DNA from: an uncultured Bacilli bacterium | GTDB lineage: Bacteria; Bacillota_I; Bacilli_A; RFN20; CAG-826 | DNA: 64,000 nt | Assembly: GCA_944376605.1 (NCBI GenBank) | Contig: CALWDE010000004.1 | Location: forward strand, 1 to 64,000 | Direction of reading: 5' to 3' | In this document: positions 13,840-27,272 of the stretch, piece by piece | Layout of the letters: every line of letters begins with the position of its first letter | How positions within the stretch are numbered: the stretch's first letter is position 1 | Translations under genes and position numbers: made by a program | The notes under the pieces: generated by a model | What the model was told of the DNA's origin: nothing | Databases searched by the model: none | The model's input: only the letters and a program-made list of their open reading frames with translations

Positions 13840-15399
13840 TTATACGCGAGAGATAGTAATAGACGCACTCTTTCCTTTGTCTAAATCACGAATTCCGTTT
13901 ATTTGAATTTGATAAGGGAAACTTTCTCCACTATGGAGTAATCCCTTCTCGCCTAAATAAGAAGGAGAGAAAATATTCTTACCTTCTTCTGGATAAAATA
14001 AATCATTATTGTCCGCGTAATAGATATTCGCACCATCTTGCTGATTTAAATGATTCTTTTGATCCGCCTCAACGAGTTCTAATAAAGAATAAGCATCTTC
14101 TTTGCTGTTTCTAGGATCATTATCCGCACCTACTGCATAGAAATAAGGCTCTAATGTTAAATCGTCGTTTGTGATTCCAAATACATAATTGTCTTTTAAG
14201 ATTAAATTTCCGCTTCTTCTTGCCTCAACAATTCGAGCGTCAACATGTGTAATACGGATTCCTGGCAAAGAATAATAAAGAGGGTACTGACCTAAATAAC
14301 GCTTTTCTGCGTCAAGTGAACTTAAGTTATCAAGTGATAAAAGTTCTATCATAATGCCTTCTGAAAAAGGAGATATCTCCCCTGAATCTGGAAGGAGAAA
14401 AATGCTCTCCCCATAGGAAGTATCTTTTAATTCCACAGTAAAAGAGTCTTCCTCTTGGTAAACAAGGTAAGGAGAAGACCAGCCTAAAGCATATTTGGTC
14501 CAAGCATGATGGTCCCCTAGTCCAAGATCCATCATATCAAGCCCTCCTAGAGGCATACGATACTTATATCTCTCATTACGGTAGGTATCATCAAAAGAGG
14601 CGCTATTGTAGTAATCGGGAAGACCAAATAAATGACCTGTTTCATGAATTAAAGTATGCGTGTCTGCCCCAAGAGAAGAACGTTCTAAAAAAGAATAAGA
14701 ACACCAGATGTAATCCATCCCAACAGGGGAAGAAAAATTCGCATTCGCACCATAGTCGTAATAGGTATACGCCCAAAACTCATTTGCCTCTTCTGCATTT
14801 AATCCTTCTGCTACATAGTCATGTTCTTCATATGTTGGAGCGCTATAAACTAGATACACGGCATCTAAATACCCATCTTGATTTTGATCAAAATCGGTTA
14901 AAGAGAGAGAAGAAGACAAAGAGGAAACCACCTCTCTTAATAAACGAACTGTTTTACGAGAATGGTTACTTGTTCCTTTCATAAACTCAGAAGCAGTAAC
15001 ATTCATTTCTATTTTGTCTGTAATCACAAAATCTAAAGATAAGGCTCCATAAGAAGAAAGGGAGTAATAATCCTGCACCGAATAAAAATATGGATTTGGG
15101 CCCAGAAAGGCAGTTTCTAGCTTTTCCTGATAGTCACTAGGAAAAAGAAAATCAGAAAACTCTACAGGCACCACTAAAGCTTTTTGATTTCCTCTTGCAG
15201 ATAAAGCAGGGGTGAATTCGCCCTCATCATAGGCGTTTAAAGCGTCATAAGTTAAAGAAGGAGAAGGCGCTTTTTCTAATTCTTTTGTTGCAGGAAGATA
15301 ACCTTTTTCCCACTCCGAAAAAGAGAAAGTATGACAAGAAGATAACGAAAAAGAGAAGAGAACAAGTAAGAAAAAAGCGAATAGTTTCTTCTTCACCAT
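13840..15399 (-). CDS. M6-family zinc metalloprotease lipoprotein
   Basis: The N-terminus has a hydrophobic signal and a lipobox ending LSSC (Cys 22), so the protein is anchored outside the membrane. The zinc motif HETGH (252-256) within IHETGHLFGLPDYY and the later GLDMMDLG fit M6 / immune-inhibitor-A-like peptidases. An EF-hand-like loop DFDQNQDGYLD (169-179) may bind calcium. It is 519 aa, eight bases ahead of smpB, and has TATAAT six bases before its ATG (15406-15411), so its mRNA may be leaderless. The substrate is unknown. Confidence 0.87.
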   Translation of the reverse strand: MVKKKLFAFFLLVLFSFSLSSCHTFSFSEWEKGYLPATKELEKAPSPSLTYDALNAYDEGEFTPALSARGNQKALVVPVEFSDFLFPSDYQEKLETAFLGPNPYFYSVQDYYSLSSYGALSLDFVITDKIEMNVTASEFMKGTSNHSRKTVRLLREVVSSLSSSLSLTDFDQNQDGYLDAVYLVYSAPTYEEHDYVAEGLNAEEANEFWAYTYYDYGANANFSSPVGMDYIWCSYSFLERSSLGADTHTLIHETGHLFGLPDYYNSASFDDTYRNERYKYRMPLGGLDMMDLGLGDHHAWTKYALGWSSPYLVYQEEDSFTVELKDTSYGESIFLLPDSGEISPFSEGIMIELLSLDNLSSLDAEKRYLGQYPLYYSLPGIRITHVDARIVEARRSGNLILKDNYVFGITNDDLTLEPYFYAVGADNDPRNSKEDAYSLLELVEADQKNHLNQQDGANIYYADNNDLFYPEEGKNIFSPSYLGEKGLLHSGESFPYQIQINGIRDLDKGKSASITISRV

Positions 15400-17746: not shown

Positions 17747-19895
17747 GCAAATTAGTGACCCGATTTTGCATTACTCCCAAACTTTTAATAAGGCAGACTG
17801 ACACCGAAAGGTGTTAGGAAGTGACCCGATTTTGCATTACTCCCAAACTGCCATGACGTCAGAAAAGACGAGGAGCCCGTTAGGAAGTGACCCGATTTTG
17901 CATTACTCCCAAACGAGGTCTTTATCGTGGAAAATGTATATTTTGTTAGGAAGTGACCCGATTTTGCATTACTCCCAAACTTCATAGAAGATTGTAACGC
18001 TAATGACAGCGTTAGGAAGTGACCCGATTTTGCATTACTCCCAAACAGCAAGACTGCTCTATATCACTCTTACAAGGTTAGGAAGTGACCCGATTTTGCA
18101 TTACTCCCAAACTATCGTTGTTAATCATTTGGATTTTTATATGTTAGGAAGTGACCCGATTTTGCATTACTCCCAAACTTAAGCCTGTTTATATGTCTTT
18201 GGAAACCGGTTAGGAAGTGACCCGATTTTGCATTACTCCCAAACTTTGATTGTTTCTTTCTTGTCAAAATATACGTTAGGAAGTGACCCGATTTTGCATT
18301 ACTCCCAAACTGCGCGTGTTCTCGTAATAGAGTAAGAAATGTTAGGAAGTGACCCGATTTTGCATTACTCCCAAACAATATCTTGGTGGTAAGCGTGTTC
18401 CTATTAGTTAGGAAGTGACCCGATTTTGCATTACTCCCAAACAAGTACGCCCTATTTTAATATGATAATAATGTTAGGAAGTGACCCGATTTTGCATTAC
18501 TCCCAAACAACGCTCATCGTAGCAATAGCGGCGTTGGCGTTAGGAAGTGACCCGATTTTGCATTACTCCCAAACAAAATCATAAAGAGTTGGCGAGTATC
18601 CGCTGTTAGGAAGTGACCCGATTTTGCATTACTCCCAAACTTGTTAAATGAGAGAACCAAGAACTGGCGAGTTAGGAAGTGACCCGATTTTGCATTACTC
18701 CCAAACCCAACTTAATAAGGCTCGAACTTGGTCTTTGTTAGGAAGTGACCCGATTTTGCATTACTCCCAAACCTCTTGTTGGTATTTCTGGAGAACCTTC
18801 TTGTTAGGAAGTGACCCGATTTTGCATTACTCCCAAACAATTCCAGAACTTCACGCATATATGGATGATGTTAGGAAGTGACCCGATTTTGCATTACTCC
18901 CAAACATGAATCCGCCGGGCTCCTTTGCCTTGCAGGTTAGGAAGTGACCCGATTTTGCATTACTCCCAAACGACGACCTTGAACCTGTTGCCGGAATCGG
19001 CGTTAGGAAGTGACCCGATTTTGCATTACTCCCAAACACCTCACTTTCAGCGAGTTCGCGACCTTCCGTTAGGAAGTGACCCGATTTTGCATTACTCCCA
19101 AACCTGGTGATGGTGCTCCTGAGTTCCTTCTTGGTTAGGAAGTGACCCGATTTTGCATTACTCCCAAACGTTTTCTTCGTTTTTTGTGTAGACAATAAGG
19201 TTAGGAAGTGACCCGATTTTGCATTACTCCCAAACTCAAGAACCGAGCACATCAAATTAGAATAAGTTAGGAAGTGACCCGATTTTGCATTACTCCCAAA
19301 CCATAAAACGATGTTTATCGGTGTAGATTTGGTTAGGAAGTGACCCGATTTTGCATTACTCCCAAACGCTGGAACGTTGATACTTCAAAACTAAGAAGTT
19401 AGGAAGTGACCCGATTTTGCATTACTCCCAAACTCAGTATTTCAACACATCTGGATTTATCTGGTTAGGAAGTGACCCGATTTTGCATTACTCCCAAACA
19501 GAGTCTTCTCTCTGAATGTAATAAGCATTGTTAGGAAGTGACCCGATTTTGCATTACTCCCAAACGTCTGCTGCATGATCGTGAGCGCCTCCCTTGTTAG
19601 GAAGTGACCCGATTTTGCATTACTCCCAAACTAGTTTATAAGTATGGTTCAGTGCTTTTGTGTTAGGAAGTGACCCGATTTTGCATTACTCCCAAACGGT
19701 TGTTCATGGCTAGCGGGGCTCCTTATAGTTAGGAAGTGACCCGATTTTGCATTACTCCCAAACATAGCCAAACACTCTAGCATTATCAGTAGCGTTAGGA
19801 AGTGACCCGATTTTGCATTACTCCCAAACAATCAAACTTAAATTCGTTTGTGTATGTTTGTTAGGAAGTGACCCGATTTTGCATTACTCCCAAAC
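17747..19895 (-). CRISPR. Type II-A CRISPR array: 33 repeats of 36 bp, 32 spacers
   Basis: The plus strand shows a 36-base repeat beginning GTTAGGAAGTGACCCG and ending ATTACTCCCAAAC, repeating every 66 bases; in transcript sense it begins GTTTGGGAGTAATGC. Thirty-two copies are identical; the copy at 17747-17782 has five mismatches at one end, marking the oldest, leader-distal repeat. Thirty-one spacers are 30 nt and one (18839-18869) is 31 nt; all are different. Transcription is minus strand, from the csn2 side. Open frames running through the array are repeats translated by chance. Confidence 0.98.
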
Positions 19896-19987
19896 CTAAT
19901 TTAGCTGAGAAAATGCAATTTTTCGGTGTTACGAGCACCTAGAGCCACAAATATTTTAACTTTTCGTAAGTAAACAAAAAACACGTT
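19896..19987 (-). promoter_or_regulatory. CRISPR leader
   Basis: The 92 bases between the csn2 stop and the first repeat are AT-rich. A TAAAAT -10 candidate preceded by a T-rich -35 region lies mid-leader. This is the usual type II-A leader position, where promoter and spacer-integration signals sit. Confidence 0.65.
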
Positions 19988-20650
19988 TTAGTAAATTTCG
20001 CATAGGTCTTTATCAATTACAAAACGTTTTACTCCATTATGTTTCATGTCGTGATGATCGATATCAATTAAACATAACCCAATATAACCTAGTTCTTGTT
20101 TTAATATCACAATTTCCTCTTCTTCTAGATAAGCAAACAAGTCGTATGTAATAGCAAGTTTTAAATCCATAGCTTCTCGCCAAGCACGAAGATAAGAAAT
20201 TAAGCTCATTAAAAAGGAGCTCTCATCATAATCAAATTTAAAATCAAAGTGGCCAAGTAACTGCGTCAAACTGATTTGGTCATTAAAGGTAACTTGCCCC
20301 TCAAAATCAGAAGCAAATTCCTCCAATAACTCTGCAATAGCTTGATTAATTTTGTCAAATTTTTCTCTTCTTTCTGGAGTAAGAGCAGTGCGATCAATCT
20401 TTTTATATATTGCTGTAAGGATTTTCTTAGAATTCGGATCCAGATTTAATAAATCTCTTGTTACAACAAGATGCTTTTTAAGTGCTTTTTCCTTGCCATC
20501 TTCAAAAAGAGAGAAACTATTCTCTTCTCCGTAATCTAAAGCGTCAGAAAATCCTTTATATAGTTTTCTATTTTCAATAATTAGAGAGGCAATATCCCCT
20601 GGTTCTAAATCAATAGGAAATTGAAAGAAAGTCGAACGAAAACGAATCAT
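19988..20650 (-). CDS. csn2: CRISPR-associated protein Csn2
   Basis: Csn2 forms a ring around DNA ends and works with Cas1-Cas2-Cas9 in spacer acquisition; its presence defines subtype II-A. The 220-aa length and the pattern of an N-terminal beta region (SIIIEN-like ASLIIENRKLYKGF) followed by long helices and a C-terminal hydrophobic IVILKQELGYIGLCLIDI strand fit the family. It overlaps cas2 by four bases and is last before the array. Confidence 0.88.
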   Translation of the reverse strand: MIRFRSTFFQFPIDLEPGDIASLIIENRKLYKGFSDALDYGEENSFSLFEDGKEKALKKHLVVTRDLLNLDPNSKKILTAIYKKIDRTALTPERREKFDKINQAIAELLEEFASDFEGQVTFNDQISLTQLLGHFDFKFDYDESSFLMSLISYLRAWREAMDLKLAITYDLFAYLEEEEIVILKQELGYIGLCLIDIDHHDMKHNGVKRFVIDKDLCEIY

Positions 20651-20970
20651 ATAGTAACAATCCTTTCATCAGTTGTAAGAACATCTGTATCGGGCGAACC
20701 AAGAAGATAAGCCATATCTGCAAATTGCTTTTCAGTTACTTTTAAAACGGAAACCATTCCATCGTCTGGCATAATTTCGCGAACTTGTTTAATTGAGCTT
20801 TGCGCCGCTCGATCATCCATATTAAGTTTGACATAAACAGAAAACTGAAGACGATAAAAACCTTGCTTTTTTAAACCTTTGACAAACTTTGTGTATTTCT
20901 TTTTCTCACTATCTGTCGTAACGGGTAAATCAAAAAACAAAATTAACCTCATGCATCTAAGGGAGTTCAT
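20647..20970 (-). CDS. cas2: CRISPR-associated endoribonuclease/integrase subunit Cas2
   Basis: Small 107-aa protein with the Cas2 ferredoxin-like start MRLILFFDLP (conserved Asp) and GLKKQGFYRLQFSVYVKL. It bridges Cas1 dimers in the spacer integrase. The start at 20970 overlaps cas1 by 14 bases; a GGAGG-like site lies 13 bases upstream. An internal ATG at 20952 is the alternative start. Confidence 0.94.
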   Translation of the reverse strand: MNSLRCMRLILFFDLPVTTDSEKKKYTKFVKGLKKQGFYRLQFSVYVKLNMDDRAAQSSIKQVREIMPDDGMVSVLKVTEKQFADMAYLLGSPDTDVLTTDERIVTI

Positions 20971-21829
20971 AATTGACGAACTTCACCTCCTCCACTTTGT
21001 TTTGCTTTAAAGCAATGAGGCAAGACTGAACATAGTTATGGATTGCATTATCTAAAAACATGCAGGAGCCATCAAAAACTACTTTATTAGAAAGCATGGA
21101 AATATAAGTTTCTTTAAAGTTTTCTGTATTCACCTTTTCTCCTAGCACATAAGAATCAACATAAGGTCTTAATGGTTCAATCAAATCGCAAGATAAGTTA
21201 AAGCGATTTGTAGCCCCAATATGATGAATGCCAAGTTCCGTTAAATATCCAAAAGATTTTATTTCTCGAGAAATCGCTGAGAGCAAAATGCTATAACCAT
21301 AGTTGAGATAGATATTAGTTTGAACATCGTGATCAGAACGTTGAAAATTCGAACCAAAACAAGAAGAAAAATACACTCTTGCAGCGTGACCTTCTTGATT
21401 TTCTTTATCGCCCGGCGAAACTATACTTTCTAACTTTCTTAAGGAATCTGCTCCCTCTTTATGATAAAAGTTCAAGTTTCTTGCTTGATTCTTAATCTTT
21501 TCTTTAATAATTCTTTGCCAAAGAAGTCCCTTTGTGGACAACATCCACCCCATCTGTGTTTTGATCTTGTTATAGGCATCGTGGGTGCCTTGATACGCTA
21601 ATAACTCACCTTGAGGATTTGATTTTACATCACAAAAAATCACAGGAATCTTAGCTTCCATAAGGCGCGATAAAAGCGCTGCGGTCATTGAAACGCCAAC
21701 ATTTTGAATAATAAGTAAGGACACTTCATCTATATTAATCCGCGTTTCGTTGTCTCCGCGGCAAACAAGATAATTCATCGAGTATTCAAGTTTGCAGCGG
21801 TTTTTAATGACAACAGTGCGGAAAGCCAT
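20957..21829 (-). CDS. cas1: CRISPR-associated endonuclease Cas1
   Basis: The integrase that inserts spacers. The 290-aa protein carries the type II-A Cas1 pattern, with metal ligands expected at Glu 147 (QEGHAARVYF), His 203 (GIHHIGATNRF) and the Asp/Glu of DLIEPLRPYVDS (215-218). Its start lies two bases after the cas9 stop, and its end overlaps cas2, showing one operon. Confidence 0.95.
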   Translation of the reverse strand: MAFRTVVIKNRCKLEYSMNYLVCRGDNETRINIDEVSLLIIQNVGVSMTAALLSRLMEAKIPVIFCDVKSNPQGELLAYQGTHDAYNKIKTQMGWMLSTKGLLWQRIIKEKIKNQARNLNFYHKEGADSLRKLESIVSPGDKENQEGHAARVYFSSCFGSNFQRSDHDVQTNIYLNYGYSILLSAISREIKSFGYLTELGIHHIGATNRFNLSCDLIEPLRPYVDSYVLGEKVNTENFKETYISMLSNKVVFDGSCMFLDNAIHNYVQSCLIALKQNKVEEVKFVNYELP

Positions 21830-21831
21830 TT

Positions 21832-24800
21832 TTACTCTTCTTTATTTTCCCAAACTACTTTTTCAAAGAAACCAGTTACTGATTGGTGTATTAATTTGAT
21901 TTTAGGAGGAAGGATATTAGAAATATATTTTTCCATTTTTTTACTCTTTTCATCTAGAAAATAAAGATTAAAAGTATTGGCAAGTCGCGGTGCTGCAGCA
22001 TCAACTATAGATTTCATTATTAAACACTTGCTTATAATGTTCATTGAAATGAATTGATCACGATTTTCTTTTAGTATTCGACCAGCTTTGGCAGGCGCAA
22101 AATCTTTAGAAATATCGCTAAATAATTGGCTGCCCAGTTTGTCTTTGTATAGGTCATAAAGATGAACTAAATCGTCGTTTGAAATTGAGATTTCTTTTGT
22201 TCTTTCTTTATAACCCCCGGCAACAATGATCTTATTTTCATTCCAACTGGAAAATGCAAAACTTTTGTTAAGACATTTTTTTAATGTCTCCGTATCGGTA
22301 ACCTCGCTCTTACCACCATTTACACGTTTTGCTTCTTTGAATATTCGCGATAAACCGCGCAACATGCGATATTCATATTTATTAAAATATAATTGGTTTA
22401 AAGACTGAGCATATGTGCTTTGTGTTTTGGACCCGGAGATTTTAACTCTACCTACTCCCATCTCAAAAACCGACTGAAGTTTAACCACATCAACTTCAAC
22501 TTTTATAAAAGTAGTTTTATTTATGGAACAATAAGCGCGAGCTGCTTTTTCAATCTCCCCATGAGACTTATTAGGAGCATCCATAGTTCGAATCGGTATT
22601 AACTTCGAGCGAACTTCACCTTTTTTAGTTTTTTCTTTAATAATAGAAAAGAGACCGACTTTTAAAGAGCTATATCCTCCGTATTTAGGAGATGGTAAAT
22701 TCTCCTTTATTGGAAATATTTTGCTTCCGTCTTGCTTAACTTCACTTCGAGGAAGCAAACCTACTTTTTCGAATAACGAGGTATCACAATATGGCCGAAC
22801 TGTTACCAATACAGTTCCCTGTCTTTCATACATCTGCTTTTCGATTTTTGCCAACGACTCAGCATAATTCCAAGCGATAAACCCATCTTTGTCACACACA
22901 GGATCTTTATGCTCTCCAAGACGTTTAGGCAAGTCGTTAAACACACGGATAAAGACGTTTGTTTTCTTTTTTTCCTGTGTTTCAGAATCGGAAGACGTTT
23001 TGGCATCATTCACATCTTCCTCATAAGCTTCATTTACTCTTCTTTTGATTATTTCGATTCTCTCCGGGAAATACGCCCACATTGTTCTGCCGACAATAAT
23101 ATTTAAATATGCATCATAAGCATGGTGTAAATCGTTGGCTTCCCTGCACTTTAAAAGATCAAAATGTTCGCGGAATTCTGACACCAATTCTGCTTTAGAA
23201 TAGCGAACAAATGGTTCACTACCATCCTTTCTCTTCTCAAATGTTTTAATTAGGTTAATTGTGCCTATAACAGCCTGATTTGTTGTAGTTAATTGGCGAT
23301 TAACAAAACCAACTTTTTCGTCATCTGATAATGGTTTAGTTCTTGTGAGTTTTGCATATTTAACATCGGAAAGTAAATGAATATCTTTTAAGTATTTGTA
23401 GAATGTACGTGCTTCTGAACTCAACACATGTTGAGGAATTGGATATTCAGCAAATTTCTTTTGATTGGCATCATGTAAAACTAAAACACGATTCTCAAGA
23501 CTATCATCCTTCAACAAAGACTGCGGAATAATATGGTCTATCTCGCAATAATGTTCATCGTAGCATAAACGACCAAAATCTATTTTTTCTAAAGTGTACA
23601 TGCAGCGACCAAGTTGCATAAAGTAAAGATAAATTTTGTCGCTTCTCACTTTTGCCCCAAGCTTATCTTTTTCTTCTATGAGTTTGTTATTTGAGTTATC
23701 AAAATATGATTTATATTCTTGATTACTTTTTAACTTTTCCTTTTCACTTTCTGCTTTTTCATAAAAACCTTCTAATATCTCATAACGAGTCTTTGATTTT
23801 TTCCCTTTCGTATTTGGATTAGAAGATTGCCTAGTGCATTCCACATAATATTCATCAATAGGGGCGCGTAATATTTGCTGAACTTCTTCAATAATCTTAT
23901 AAGCTTGATAAATTGGTCTTTTCACTAAGGGAGATACATATAGTTCATCAATAAACGATCTTACTTTGGTATCCTTATCTCCGCTCGTTTCTCCTAAAGC
24001 TTCTTCTCTAATTCTGTCTAGTTCTTTGATAAAGCCATAGTCTTTATTATTCAATACTGCCATCATTGTTTGACCAGTATATTTCATGATATCAAGCAAA
24101 CTGCACTGTGCAGCTTCGCCATACTCATTGATTTTTATATAAGAGTTTTCTGTCTTAAGATTAAGAAATTCTGCAGATAAGTTCCCAAATTTTTTGAAAG
24201 ATTGGTTGGCAATATCCTTGCTTCGGCTTTCATCAAAACCATAAGATTTAAGTCGTTTAATCAAAGTAGATTTGTCTTCAAAAATGGCTAGATCTCTTAA
24301 AACATTCTCAACAAGGTCTTTTTTCCCTGCCTTAATTTCGTTTTTAAAATAAGCCCAAGGCTTCATGAACGGAATGTCTTTATTATCAATTTCTTTATTA
24401 CTGGAGTAAGTGATTTTGTGCCCTTTCCCAATTTCATGGTCCAAGAAATCTTGCAAATTTGTTTTCCCTTCTTTAAAGAAGTATTCAATGATTTGTTTTC
24501 TACCAATCTCACCTAGTCCATTGCTTGGCTCTTTATCCCAAGGAATTGGATTGCCATCGATAACACACCCGTTTAACCAGTTTACGGTTACGTATTCCGT
24601 ATAGAGAAGAGAATAGCGCGGTAAAGTGTTTGCTCCATAATAATAAGAACACTTCCCTGTCATTCTCCGAATGAATTTTTCTTCGCTTTTTGCATAATCA
24701 ATTTGGTCTTCCATGCTCCAAGGATAAATTGGTTCATTTGCAGGAGTATTAATTACAGCCCACACATTTTTCTCTTGATTATGCTTTTGTTTTAATGGGC

Positions 24801-26328
24801 CGATAAAATATGGAATTTTCCATGTTAAAATGGAACAAATTTTGTTTACTGTTTTGCCATCTTCCCTTGTATAAGAATCATCTAAAAATGGGTAATATGG
24901 CGCTTGGTTTTTAATAATATCTTCCAATTCAAATAAATGAAACTGATATGGAAATACACCATTTAAATGGGAGTTTTGCTTTGGTAAAAAGTCTTCTGCA
25001 TCTAATTTATCGCAAAAATGAGTTTTGATTTCTTCATTCTTCTCATAAGAAACTGGATTTCCTTCAGTATCAACTTCTTTGAAATAATTACTAAAGACCT
25101 GTTTCTTTAGGAAATCGGTGAAATCTTTATACTTACATCTTTTTACTGATTTCCCCCTATCTGACGCAATATAAGACGCATAGTTAGCTATCTGCTTATC
25201 ACCTGTGTCATGAAACACCTGATCGTATAAAGATGGCTTTTCTCCTTCAACAGAATGAGACTTTACCCATTGCTTTAACCATTTTAAATCTTGCTTATGT
25301 GTCTCGTAACGGTTCACCATAGCTTCACTTAAAGAAGTAGCATTTCCAAGTAAACGATTAGTTGTTTCAAAATCTCGTATTTTCTTTGCCGCTAGTATAA
25401 GTAGATAACCTTTCGAATCTGTGCCTGCAATTTCTGCAATTTTCGGCAAAACACTATCAACAAGGGCTTCGCTATCAAGTTCTACATTTATTTCCTCATC
25501 GGGAAGGTTTATTTCAGATTCGTCTAAGTAATTAAATATCTTTATAGCGTCAACTTTGTTGGAGCCAGCAAGGAGAGGATAAAAAACATCTTTTAAATAA
25601 CTTGTTTTAACCCCAAATAGTTTCTCAAATTCACCTTTTAAATAATTTATTTTTCCGTTCTTTTTTGTGATTTCTATAAATTTGCTGATATTATCCTCGT
25701 TCGTAAAGCAATCAAGGTTTACTTCTTCCCCTAGGTTTTGATGAATATCCTCTAAACATTTTTTTGCAACTTGAAACTGAGCTTTGATTTCAGTTTGATC
25801 ACTAATGGATTTTAAATTATCGTGCAAAAAGTTTCCGCGATATTTGATTAGAAAATGGCACGCTAAATATATGAGACGAATATCCGCTTTTTCCGTCGTT
25901 TTCATTAAATGGAGAATTAAATGGTGAATTGTGGGATATTCCTTATGAAACTGAGAGTCACTATACCCTCCAATACCCGCAAACAAGGCATCATGCTGTG
26001 CGATAGAGTATTCATCTTTGAGAAGTAAATCTTTTTCTTCTTTTTGGTAAAAAGAATTATTGAGACGAATAAAAAACTTAGGATCCACCTTATTCATTTC
26101 TCTCGCAAATAAGCGCTGAAGCAAATCAATTCTCCTCGCCCTTCTTGCTAATCTACGTCGAGCAGCTCTATGTTGTCTTCTTTCTGCTTTTGCTTCTGCC
26201 TGTTCAAAAAGACGCGAACCGATTAGGTATTTATTTGATACTTTAACAACGTCATTATTTTCATCGGTTACACACCAACCGACAGAATCGGTACCAATGT
26301 CTAAACCCATCAGATATTTATTAGCCAT
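21832..26328 (-). CDS. cas9: Large type II-A Cas9 endonuclease (1498 aa)
   Basis: RNA-guided DNA nuclease. RuvC-I MGLDIGTDSVGW (Asp 10), arginine-rich bridge helix (about 46-75), RuvC-II YYVECTRQSSN (Glu 830), HNH motif CEIDHIIPQSLLKDDSLENR (Asp 931, His 932, Asn 946) and RuvC-III LHHAYDAYLN (His 1069, Asp 1072) are all intact, so both strands should be cut. The C-terminal IHQSVTGFFE matches the end of SpCas9, but the PAM-reading Arg-x-Arg is replaced in my alignment by Met-Glu-Lys. At 1498 aa it is about 130 residues longer than SpCas9, with the extra length mainly in the REC lobe and around 1100-1130. AGGAG lies seven bases before the ATG. Confidence 0.97.
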   Translation of the reverse strand: MANKYLMGLDIGTDSVGWCVTDENNDVVKVSNKYLIGSRLFEQAEAKAERRQHRAARRRLARRARRIDLLQRLFAREMNKVDPKFFIRLNNSFYQKEEKDLLLKDEYSIAQHDALFAGIGGYSDSQFHKEYPTIHHLILHLMKTTEKADIRLIYLACHFLIKYRGNFLHDNLKSISDQTEIKAQFQVAKKCLEDIHQNLGEEVNLDCFTNEDNISKFIEITKKNGKINYLKGEFEKLFGVKTSYLKDVFYPLLAGSNKVDAIKIFNYLDESEINLPDEEINVELDSEALVDSVLPKIAEIAGTDSKGYLLILAAKKIRDFETTNRLLGNATSLSEAMVNRYETHKQDLKWLKQWVKSHSVEGEKPSLYDQVFHDTGDKQIANYASYIASDRGKSVKRCKYKDFTDFLKKQVFSNYFKEVDTEGNPVSYEKNEEIKTHFCDKLDAEDFLPKQNSHLNGVFPYQFHLFELEDIIKNQAPYYPFLDDSYTREDGKTVNKICSILTWKIPYFIGPLKQKHNQEKNVWAVINTPANEPIYPWSMEDQIDYAKSEEKFIRRMTGKCSYYYGANTLPRYSLLYTEYVTVNWLNGCVIDGNPIPWDKEPSNGLGEIGRKQIIEYFFKEGKTNLQDFLDHEIGKGHKITYSSNKEIDNKDIPFMKPWAYFKNEIKAGKKDLVENVLRDLAIFEDKSTLIKRLKSYGFDESRSKDIANQSFKKFGNLSAEFLNLKTENSYIKINEYGEAAQCSLLDIMKYTGQTMMAVLNNKDYGFIKELDRIREEALGETSGDKDTKVRSFIDELYVSPLVKRPIYQAYKIIEEVQQILRAPIDEYYVECTRQSSNPNTKGKKSKTRYEILEGFYEKAESEKEKLKSNQEYKSYFDNSNNKLIEEKDKLGAKVRSDKIYLYFMQLGRCMYTLEKIDFGRLCYDEHYCEIDHIIPQSLLKDDSLENRVLVLHDANQKKFAEYPIPQHVLSSEARTFYKYLKDIHLLSDVKYAKLTRTKPLSDDEKVGFVNRQLTTTNQAVIGTINLIKTFEKRKDGSEPFVRYSKAELVSEFREHFDLLKCREANDLHHAYDAYLNIIVGRTMWAYFPERIEIIKRRVNEAYEEDVNDAKTSSDSETQEKKKTNVFIRVFNDLPKRLGEHKDPVCDKDGFIAWNYAESLAKIEKQMYERQGTVLVTVRPYCDTSLFEKVGLLPRSEVKQDGSKIFPIKENLPSPKYGGYSSLKVGLFSIIKEKTKKGEVRSKLIPIRTMDAPNKSHGEIEKAARAYCSINKTTFIKVEVDVVKLQSVFEMGVGRVKISGSKTQSTYAQSLNQLYFNKYEYRMLRGLSRIFKEAKRVNGGKSEVTDTETLKKCLNKSFAFSSWNENKIIVAGGYKERTKEISISNDDLVHLYDLYKDKLGSQLFSDISKDFAPAKAGRILKENRDQFISMNIISKCLIMKSIVDAAAPRLANTFNLYFLDEKSKKMEKYISNILPPKIKLIHQSVTGFFEKVVWENKEE

Positions 26329-26334
26329 TTGTAT

Positions 26335-26361
26335 TCTCCTTCAAAAAGCATATACTAATCG
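26335..26361 (+). promoter_or_regulatory. tracrRNA promoter overlapping the cas9 ribosome binding site
   Basis: On the plus strand TATACT (26351-26356) with a weak TTGTAT about 16 bases upstream (26330-26335). It reads away from cas9, overlapping the cas9 leader and ribosome binding site on the other strand. Confidence 0.5.
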
Positions 26362-26476
26362 TGCAAGGTGACCCAACTTTGCATTACGAGTCCAAATAAG
26401 GTCTTCTCTTCGAGATTACCGAACTCATAGTCCTAATGTAGGAAAGTAAGACGCTCCTTGCGGAGCGTTTTTCTTT
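26362..26476 (+). ncRNA. tracrRNA
   Basis: Bases 26366-26396 are an anti-repeat: they can pair with the transcript-sense repeat as a 6-bp lower stem (GUUUGG with CCAAAU), a bulge of GA against GAGU, a 10-bp upper stem (GUAAUGCAAA with UUUGCAUUAC) and a further 9-bp block. This is the same 2/4 bulge geometry as S. pyogenes. Downstream are a nexus-like hairpin (GGU...UCUC-UUC-GAGA...ACC), a small hairpin (UCCUA/UAGGA) and the terminator stem ACGCUCC/GGAGCGU with five U. It is divergent from cas9. Confidence 0.9.
26451..26476 (+). terminator. Intrinsic terminator of the tracrRNA
   Basis: Stem ACGCTCC/GGAGCGT with a 4-base loop followed by TTTTTCTTT. The next 180 bases (26477-26655) hold nothing I can support. 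Confidence 0.9.
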
Positions 26477-26655: not shown

Positions 26656-27243
26656 TTATTCAACTTCTTTATGTTCTTGTAACTTATTTTTTAATAAATT
26701 TAAAAGGAAATATACTTCTGAATTTAAAGGTCTTTCCACACCTTCTGGATAAAACATTAAGGTGGTAGGAACCTTATCTAGACAAATAATGGTTAAAAGG
26801 AAGGAAGCAATATCATCACTCCAAAACGTTTTCCCAATTAAAAGAGCCATTAAAAAGAAAAAACTATGATCGATACCGCCTCGAAAGAAAAAGATAAAAG
26901 TAAGAAAGCAATACACAAGACTTCTCGGTAAATCATCTCTTTGCATGAGAGATAAGAAATCTTTTCTTTCTTCTTCTCTTAGAGTGAAAAAGGTACAGTG
27001 CTCGATATCTAGAATGTGTTCTTCTAGTGTTTTCTCTTTGATAAGATGCGGCACCCCTATCTTTGCGATAGACTGCTCTCTTTCACTATCTAGATAAAAA
27101 TCTCCCGCCTTTTCTAAGTAATGAAAGAACGCATTCGTAGGAAGAGAGTAAGAAGAGATAAGCGCATCTACTTCTTTTCCTAATGTAAGGAGTTCTTTTC
27201 TTAAGGAAAGAGAGAAACGCGATGCAAAATGAAGGGAATCCAT
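26656..27243 (-). CDS. Unknown protein (195 aa)
   Basis: I do not recognise the family. The N-terminal half is hydrophilic and helical; the stretch around residues 105-160 (LVYCFLTFIFFF, FFFLMALLIG, FLLTIICLD) is hydrophobic and may be membrane-associated. The start is set at 27243 rather than 27267 because TATAAT lies exactly six bases before that ATG, as for other leaderless starts here. It is divergent from the desulfoferrodoxin gene. Confidence 0.6.
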   Translation of the reverse strand: MDSLHFASRFSLSLRKELLTLGKEVDALISSYSLPTNAFFHYLEKAGDFYLDSEREQSIAKIGVPHLIKEKTLEEHILDIEHCTFFTLREEERKDFLSLMQRDDLPRSLVYCFLTFIFFFRGGIDHSFFFLMALLIGKTFWSDDIASFLLTIICLDKVPTTLMFYPEGVERPLNSEVYFLLNLLKNKLQEHKEVE

Positions 27244-27272
27244 ATTTCTATTATAAAAAGAATGCATCTTTC

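Follow-up and report, generated by a model that had tools for sequence, protein, structure and literature searches.

A complete type II-A CRISPR-Cas locus with a divergent, longish Cas9 in an uncultured lineage of Bacilli

Does a Cas9 of 1498 residues mark a new kind of CRISPR system, or is it a large member of a familiar one? The question arises from a locus in the window, as we call the whole stretch of 64,000 nucleotides that was analysed, which a first-pass annotation had described as a complete type II-A CRISPR-Cas9 locus with an unusually long Cas9, possibly from a poorly studied branch. We conclude, with a probability of about 93%, that an uncultured Bacilli lineage with a small genome here carries a complete type II-A CRISPR-Cas system of adaptive immunity, equipped with a divergent Cas9. 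The host is an uncultured gut-type bacterium, and the locus is an intact, ordinary type II-A system whose Cas9 is distant and longish.

Read along the minus strand (17747–26328), the order of transcription is cas9, cas1, cas2, csn2, leader and array. The cas9 gene (21832–26328, minus strand, 1498 aa) matches TIGR01865 with 655.8 bits (cut-off 100) and its product carries the Pfam domains Cas9_REC, bridge helix, HNH_4, RuvC and PI. It is followed, also on the minus strand, by cas1 (20957–21829, 290 aa; TIGR03639, 265 bits, cut-off 120; PADLOC Cas1_II, 324 bits), cas2 (20647–20970, 107 aa; TIGR01573, 72.9 bits; PADLOC Cas2_II, 122 bits) and csn2 (19988–20650, 220 aa; TIGR01866, 131.5 bits, cut-off 35; PF09711, 61.4 bits), which encodes the short, 220-aa form of Csn2, related by phmmer to solved Csn2 chains. 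The cas genes abut or overlap, as expected of a single operon. A non-coding leader of 92 bp (19896–19987, minus strand) separates csn2 from the first perfect repeat. Beyond it lies the array (17747–19895), which has 33 repeats and 32 spacers and whose crRNA-sense strand is the minus strand. The 36-nt repeat, GTTTGGGAGTAATGCAAAATCGGGTCACTTCCTAAC, is identical in 32 of the 33 copies; only the leader-distal one (17747–17782) is degenerate, with five mismatches, which agrees with a leader adjoining csn2. All spacers are 30 nt long except one of 31 nt (31 and 1, respectively), and the orientation of the array is confirmed by tracrRNA pairing and by the side on which the PAM lies. The system is of type II, as it has a Cas9 with RuvC and HNH nuclease domains and a tracrRNA complementary to the repeat, and of subtype II-A, as csn2 adjoins cas1 and cas2, the array is co-directional with cas9-cas1-cas2-csn2 and the leader lies 3′ of csn2. 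The traits of subtype II-B, cas4 and a long II-B Cas9, are not found here, since csn2 is the fourth and last gene of the operon and the Cas9 is placed among csn2-linked Cas9s. Family models, gene order, csn2 and the anatomy of the array thus bear out both the II-A assignment and the statement that array, csn2, cas2, cas1, Cas9 and tracrRNA are all present and intact.

Where does this Cas9 belong? We compared it with 77 Cas9s from genome contigs, nearly all of them encoded beside csn2, to give a set of 78, to which a few anchors were added. Aligned with SpCas9 and these 77 relatives, the 1498-residue protein retains, as had been claimed, every catalytic residue of RuvC (D10, E830, H1069, D1072) and of HNH (D931, H932, N955). 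Its closest relatives, at 52% and 50% identity, are encoded by two uncultured MAGs, G207 (L032/CASEPN010000002.1) and G200 (L033/CALVOS010000038.1), while SpCas9 is 32% identical. In the tree of the 78 Cas9s and anchors it groups with these two, then with that of a further genome, G206, within a clade of 13 sequences (support 99), every one of which comes from an uncultured member of the Bacilli or from an unclassified bacterial MAG. At a deeper level it falls with the csn2-linked Cas9s and SpCas9 (support 95–99), the sole outgroup being Ilyobacter L167, a type II Cas9 without csn2 in its operon. Among Cas9s of solved structure, the nearest are distantly related type II-A enzymes, and neither these nor any plasmid-borne Cas9 come close to it. 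No orthologue above 70% identity was found among the genome contigs, solved structures and plasmid-borne Cas9s that were searched, and within that scope the idea of a poorly studied branch is supported.

The loci of G207 and G200 share with the window the operon order and the chromosomal site, and their Cas9s are of similar length (1489 and 1481 aa). Their Cas1 and Csn2 are ~74% and ~79% identical to those of the window, their tracrRNA is likewise divergently oriented, and in G207 the repeats begin GTTTGGGAG. Their genomes have ~60% G+C as against 38% in the window genome, and their spacers differ. The WED and PI parts of their Cas9s are only 34–47% identical to those of the window, so that their PAM probably differs as well. 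SpCas9, a type II-A enzyme of S. pyogenes (taken from plasmid pCAGO), has the same domains and catalytic residues in 1368 aa; its PAM is NGG, and the PAM-reading residues R1333 and R1335 align with Q1425 and K1434 of the window Cas9, in a region where the alignment is weak. In the native S. pyogenes system csn2 is present and the tracrRNA lies upstream of, and divergent from, cas9.

The same arrangement is seen in the window, where a tracrRNA with a putative 5′ end, an anti-repeat, stem-loops and a terminator lies upstream of cas9 on the opposite strand (26360–26474, plus strand). It had been called readable, and it is so: the anti-repeat (26365–26398, plus strand) forms 26 pairs with the repeat in RNAduplex, and a terminator-like site with 10 pairs makes up the Rho-independent hairpin (26448–26471, plus strand), one of two such sites in the region on both strands as against 0.1 expected in shuffles. 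The repeat pairs with its own anti-repeat at −33.8 kcal/mol and with the tracrRNAs of sister loci at −25.6, −25.6 and −17.4 kcal/mol, and in such cross-pairings every repeat pairs best inside its own clade. Indeed, repeat and anti-repeat covary with pairing kept across three syntenic loci (window, G207 and G206), through compensatory changes that, between window and G207, replace U-A by C-G at repeat position 10, A-U by G-C at position 12, A-U by U-A at position 16 and C-G by G-C at position 28. A gene for RNase III lies elsewhere in the same genome (G000:C8; TIGR02191, above cut-off). Adjoining the tracrRNA is a gene for a 203-aa protein without a Pfam match (26656–27267, minus strand), which has counterparts at the corresponding position in G206, G207 and G200, to which it is only ~33% identical.

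What has this array recorded? We searched 224 genomes from the family and 279 from the order with all 32 spacers, three of which match 30/30 within a single prophage of a same-genus genome, G202, in which no Cas9 match was detectable. Spacer 5 (19566–19595, minus strand) matches the DNA polymerase gene, and spacers 14 (18972–19001, minus strand) and 15 (18906–18935, minus strand) match one serine integrase gene. The region (~346000–368000 of G202:C1; L120, L121) contains genes for a large terminase and a portal protein as well, which identifies it as a prophage. As a set, the 3′ flanks of the protospacers of spacers 5, 14 and 15 are GAAGAAAACG, GAGGAAGAGG and CAGGAAGGAC: NARGAA stands directly 3′ of all three, the 5′ flanks have nothing in common, and the motif occupies ~0.5% of positions per strand in the prophage region. 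The array is thus a real memory of past encounters, and 5′-NARGAA-3′ is the likely PAM, a strong but small-sample prediction from sequence, as the motif was derived post hoc from only three sites, two of them in one gene, and only 3 of the 32 spacers are mapped. In this way the array links an uncultured host to a phage known as a prophage in a sister species. Elsewhere the searches yielded little. The spacers had no match among INPHARED phages; five of six spacers searched in IMG/VR through their 19–20-nt 3′ ends had none there; the polymerase and integrase of the prophage had only distant relatives in IMG/VR, in which no spacer matched within four mismatches; and no protospacer was found for the spacers of the sister locus in G207. 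The one IMG/VR match, of spacer 5 (L209), was dropped as chance-like, with 7 mismatches in 30 nt, no motif and a contig unrelated to the prophage. The predicted PAM is close to NNRGAA, that of St1Cas9 from the CRISPR1 locus of S. thermophilus (PMC9433092). This is a resemblance in target motif and not a sign of kinship: St1Cas9 is much shorter, and its chains of 1121–1122 aa align with the window Cas9 over only ~290 residues.

Two other accounts of what the locus does have to be weighed against a working type II-A system. Its Cas9 might represent a functional class of its own that has gained a domain or an activity, as could be suspected from its rank as second longest of the 78 type II-A Cas9s (median ~1360 aa) and from several segments that exceed the median. 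The excess is, however, divided among many places: about +15 and +13 in REC, +8 before and +17 after RuvC-II (the RuvC-II/HNH linker), +32 in the stretch from RuvC-III to WED (1072–1216) and +33 in WED/PI, and no new Pfam domain is recognised in any of these segments. For the REC part and the C-terminal part (mean pLDDT ~84), AlphaFold models match the structures of SpCas9, S. thermophilus Cas9 and FrCas9 in Foldseek; residues 1073–1172, the first hundred of the C-terminal model, are predicted with low confidence and are the only poor stretch there. The added length is thus a matter of several small expansions and not of a new domain. The enzyme is longer than the common ones and yet only mildly unusual, given that natural Cas9s range from ~1000 to 1600 aa, with modes near 1100 and 1375 (PMC7606464). 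Because a syntenic, csn2-bearing relative reaches 1558 aa (G206, the longest of the set) and the published range extends to ~1600 aa, the window Cas9 lies in the upper tail of length and is no new class; judged by its sequence, it is divergent within its kind and slightly expanded in REC, the HNH linker and WED/PI. We regard an added activity as very improbable.

The locus might also be a decaying or inactive remnant, a view to which the large share of spacers without a known target lends itself, as does a simple scan that found no strong sigma-70 promoter for the tracrRNA or the leader. It is hard to reconcile with intact frames and catalytic residues throughout, with 32 identical repeats, with the covariation of repeat and anti-repeat or with exact protospacers. 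In the sister pair G207/G200, moreover, purifying selection on cas1 and csn2 is strong (dN/dS 0.02–0.03). Decay seems to us extremely improbable.

How, then, would this ordinary type II-A system operate? Cas1, Cas2 and Csn2, together with Cas9 and the tracrRNA, would take 30-nt pieces of phage DNA that adjoin a PAM, and new spacers would go in at the leader end, 3′ of csn2. The array would be transcribed from the minus strand, the tracrRNA would pair with the repeats and the duplex would be trimmed by RNase III, after which Cas9 with its dual RNA would cut phage DNA in which the protospacer is followed by 5′-NARGAA-3′. That the locus is expressed, acquires spacers and cleaves its targets is inferred from sequence, as is the exact PAM.

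How has such a locus been kept over time? The cas operon is retained at one chromosomal site in four species, represented by G000 (the genome of the window), G206, G207 and G200, with desulfoferrodoxin, patatin and phosphoglycerate-mutase-like genes as common neighbours, and with cation-efflux and haemolysin-III-like genes on the other flank in G207. The leader/repeat junction, TTAG/GTTTGGG, is also present in G207 and G206. Among 2211 locus pairs, the strongest departures from the usual relation of Cas9 to the adaptation genes all fall in this group. Between window and G206 (L040/L207, G206:C2:138597-143276), Cas9 is 30–32% identical, as against 75% for Cas1, 85% for Cas2 and 82% for Csn2. 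Set against 82 orthologue pairs of G000 and G206 (median identity 69%), Cas1 and Csn2 stand at the 59th and 79th percentiles and Cas9 ranks last in conservation. The Cas9s of window and G207 (~50%), by contrast, stand at the 28th percentile of the genome background. Only the G206 Cas9 is thus a true outlier, either through replacement by the gene of an unsampled relative or through strong acceleration; a replacement between window and G207/G200 was rejected on the same 28th percentile. A clade of window and G206 is rejected by the Cas9 tree (p-AU 0.0001) and the adaptation-gene tree leans against it too (p-AU 0.058), so that the two trees are in no clear conflict and do not settle replacement versus acceleration.

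A second kind of change is seen between G207 and G200. Over residues 1–1185 their Cas9s are 87% identical, with a dS of 0.78 equal to that of cas1, while from the YGGY motif on (residues 1186 to the end) identity drops to ~46%, with saturation at synonymous sites. Such a pattern marks a WED/PI cassette that has been exchanged (L032/L033). The same sign appears in two other close pairs (L049/L055 and L037/L039), the median ratio in 101 pairs being ~1.1. Swapping the PI part by engineering is known to alter the PAM (PMC9433092); the exchange in G207/G200 would be a natural one. Taken together, these observations suggest, for this genus, a vertically kept II-A locus that turns over its effector and keeps its acquisition genes, with the G206 cas9 (and its matching tracrRNA and repeat) replaced or fast-diverged, the G207/G200 WED/PI swapped at YGGY, and the long Cas9 of the window as one version in the series, perhaps driven by anti-CRISPRs or PAM escape. 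We put this history forward tentatively, at somewhat less than an even chance. The high identity of Cas1, Cas2 and Csn2 to those of the window (74–85%, against 30–52% for Cas9 between the syntenic loci) could also arise if it were the adaptation genes that had moved, cas1-cas2-csn2 having spread recently among congeners, so that Cas9 only seems to evolve fast. Such a scenario bears on how the locus arose and not on its function, and it is unlikely, since Cas1 and Csn2 are unremarkable and Cas9 is at the bottom among the G000–G206 pairs, and the dS of cas1 and csn2 between G207 and G200 (0.78 and 1.18) is not below that of neighbouring genes.

The four syntenic loci offer a natural series in which the effector sequence and its PAM part change and the acquisition genes stay constant. 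The window adds a full Cas9 set that can be put to the test, with protein, tracrRNA, repeat and the predicted PAM NARGAA, from a branch in which we found no characterised member. The novelty is modest, and the added value lies in the predicted PAM, the covariation-backed tracrRNA, the phage link and the evidence for effector turnover in related loci. Another same-genus genome (G211:C30, L205) has a Cas9 matched only in two separate pieces, possibly a broken cas9. Within the window, a gene at 13840–15399 (minus strand) encodes a 519-aa, secreted-looking protein that has no Pfam match. It begins in the manner of a lipoprotein and contains HETGH, a motif typical of zinc metalloproteases.
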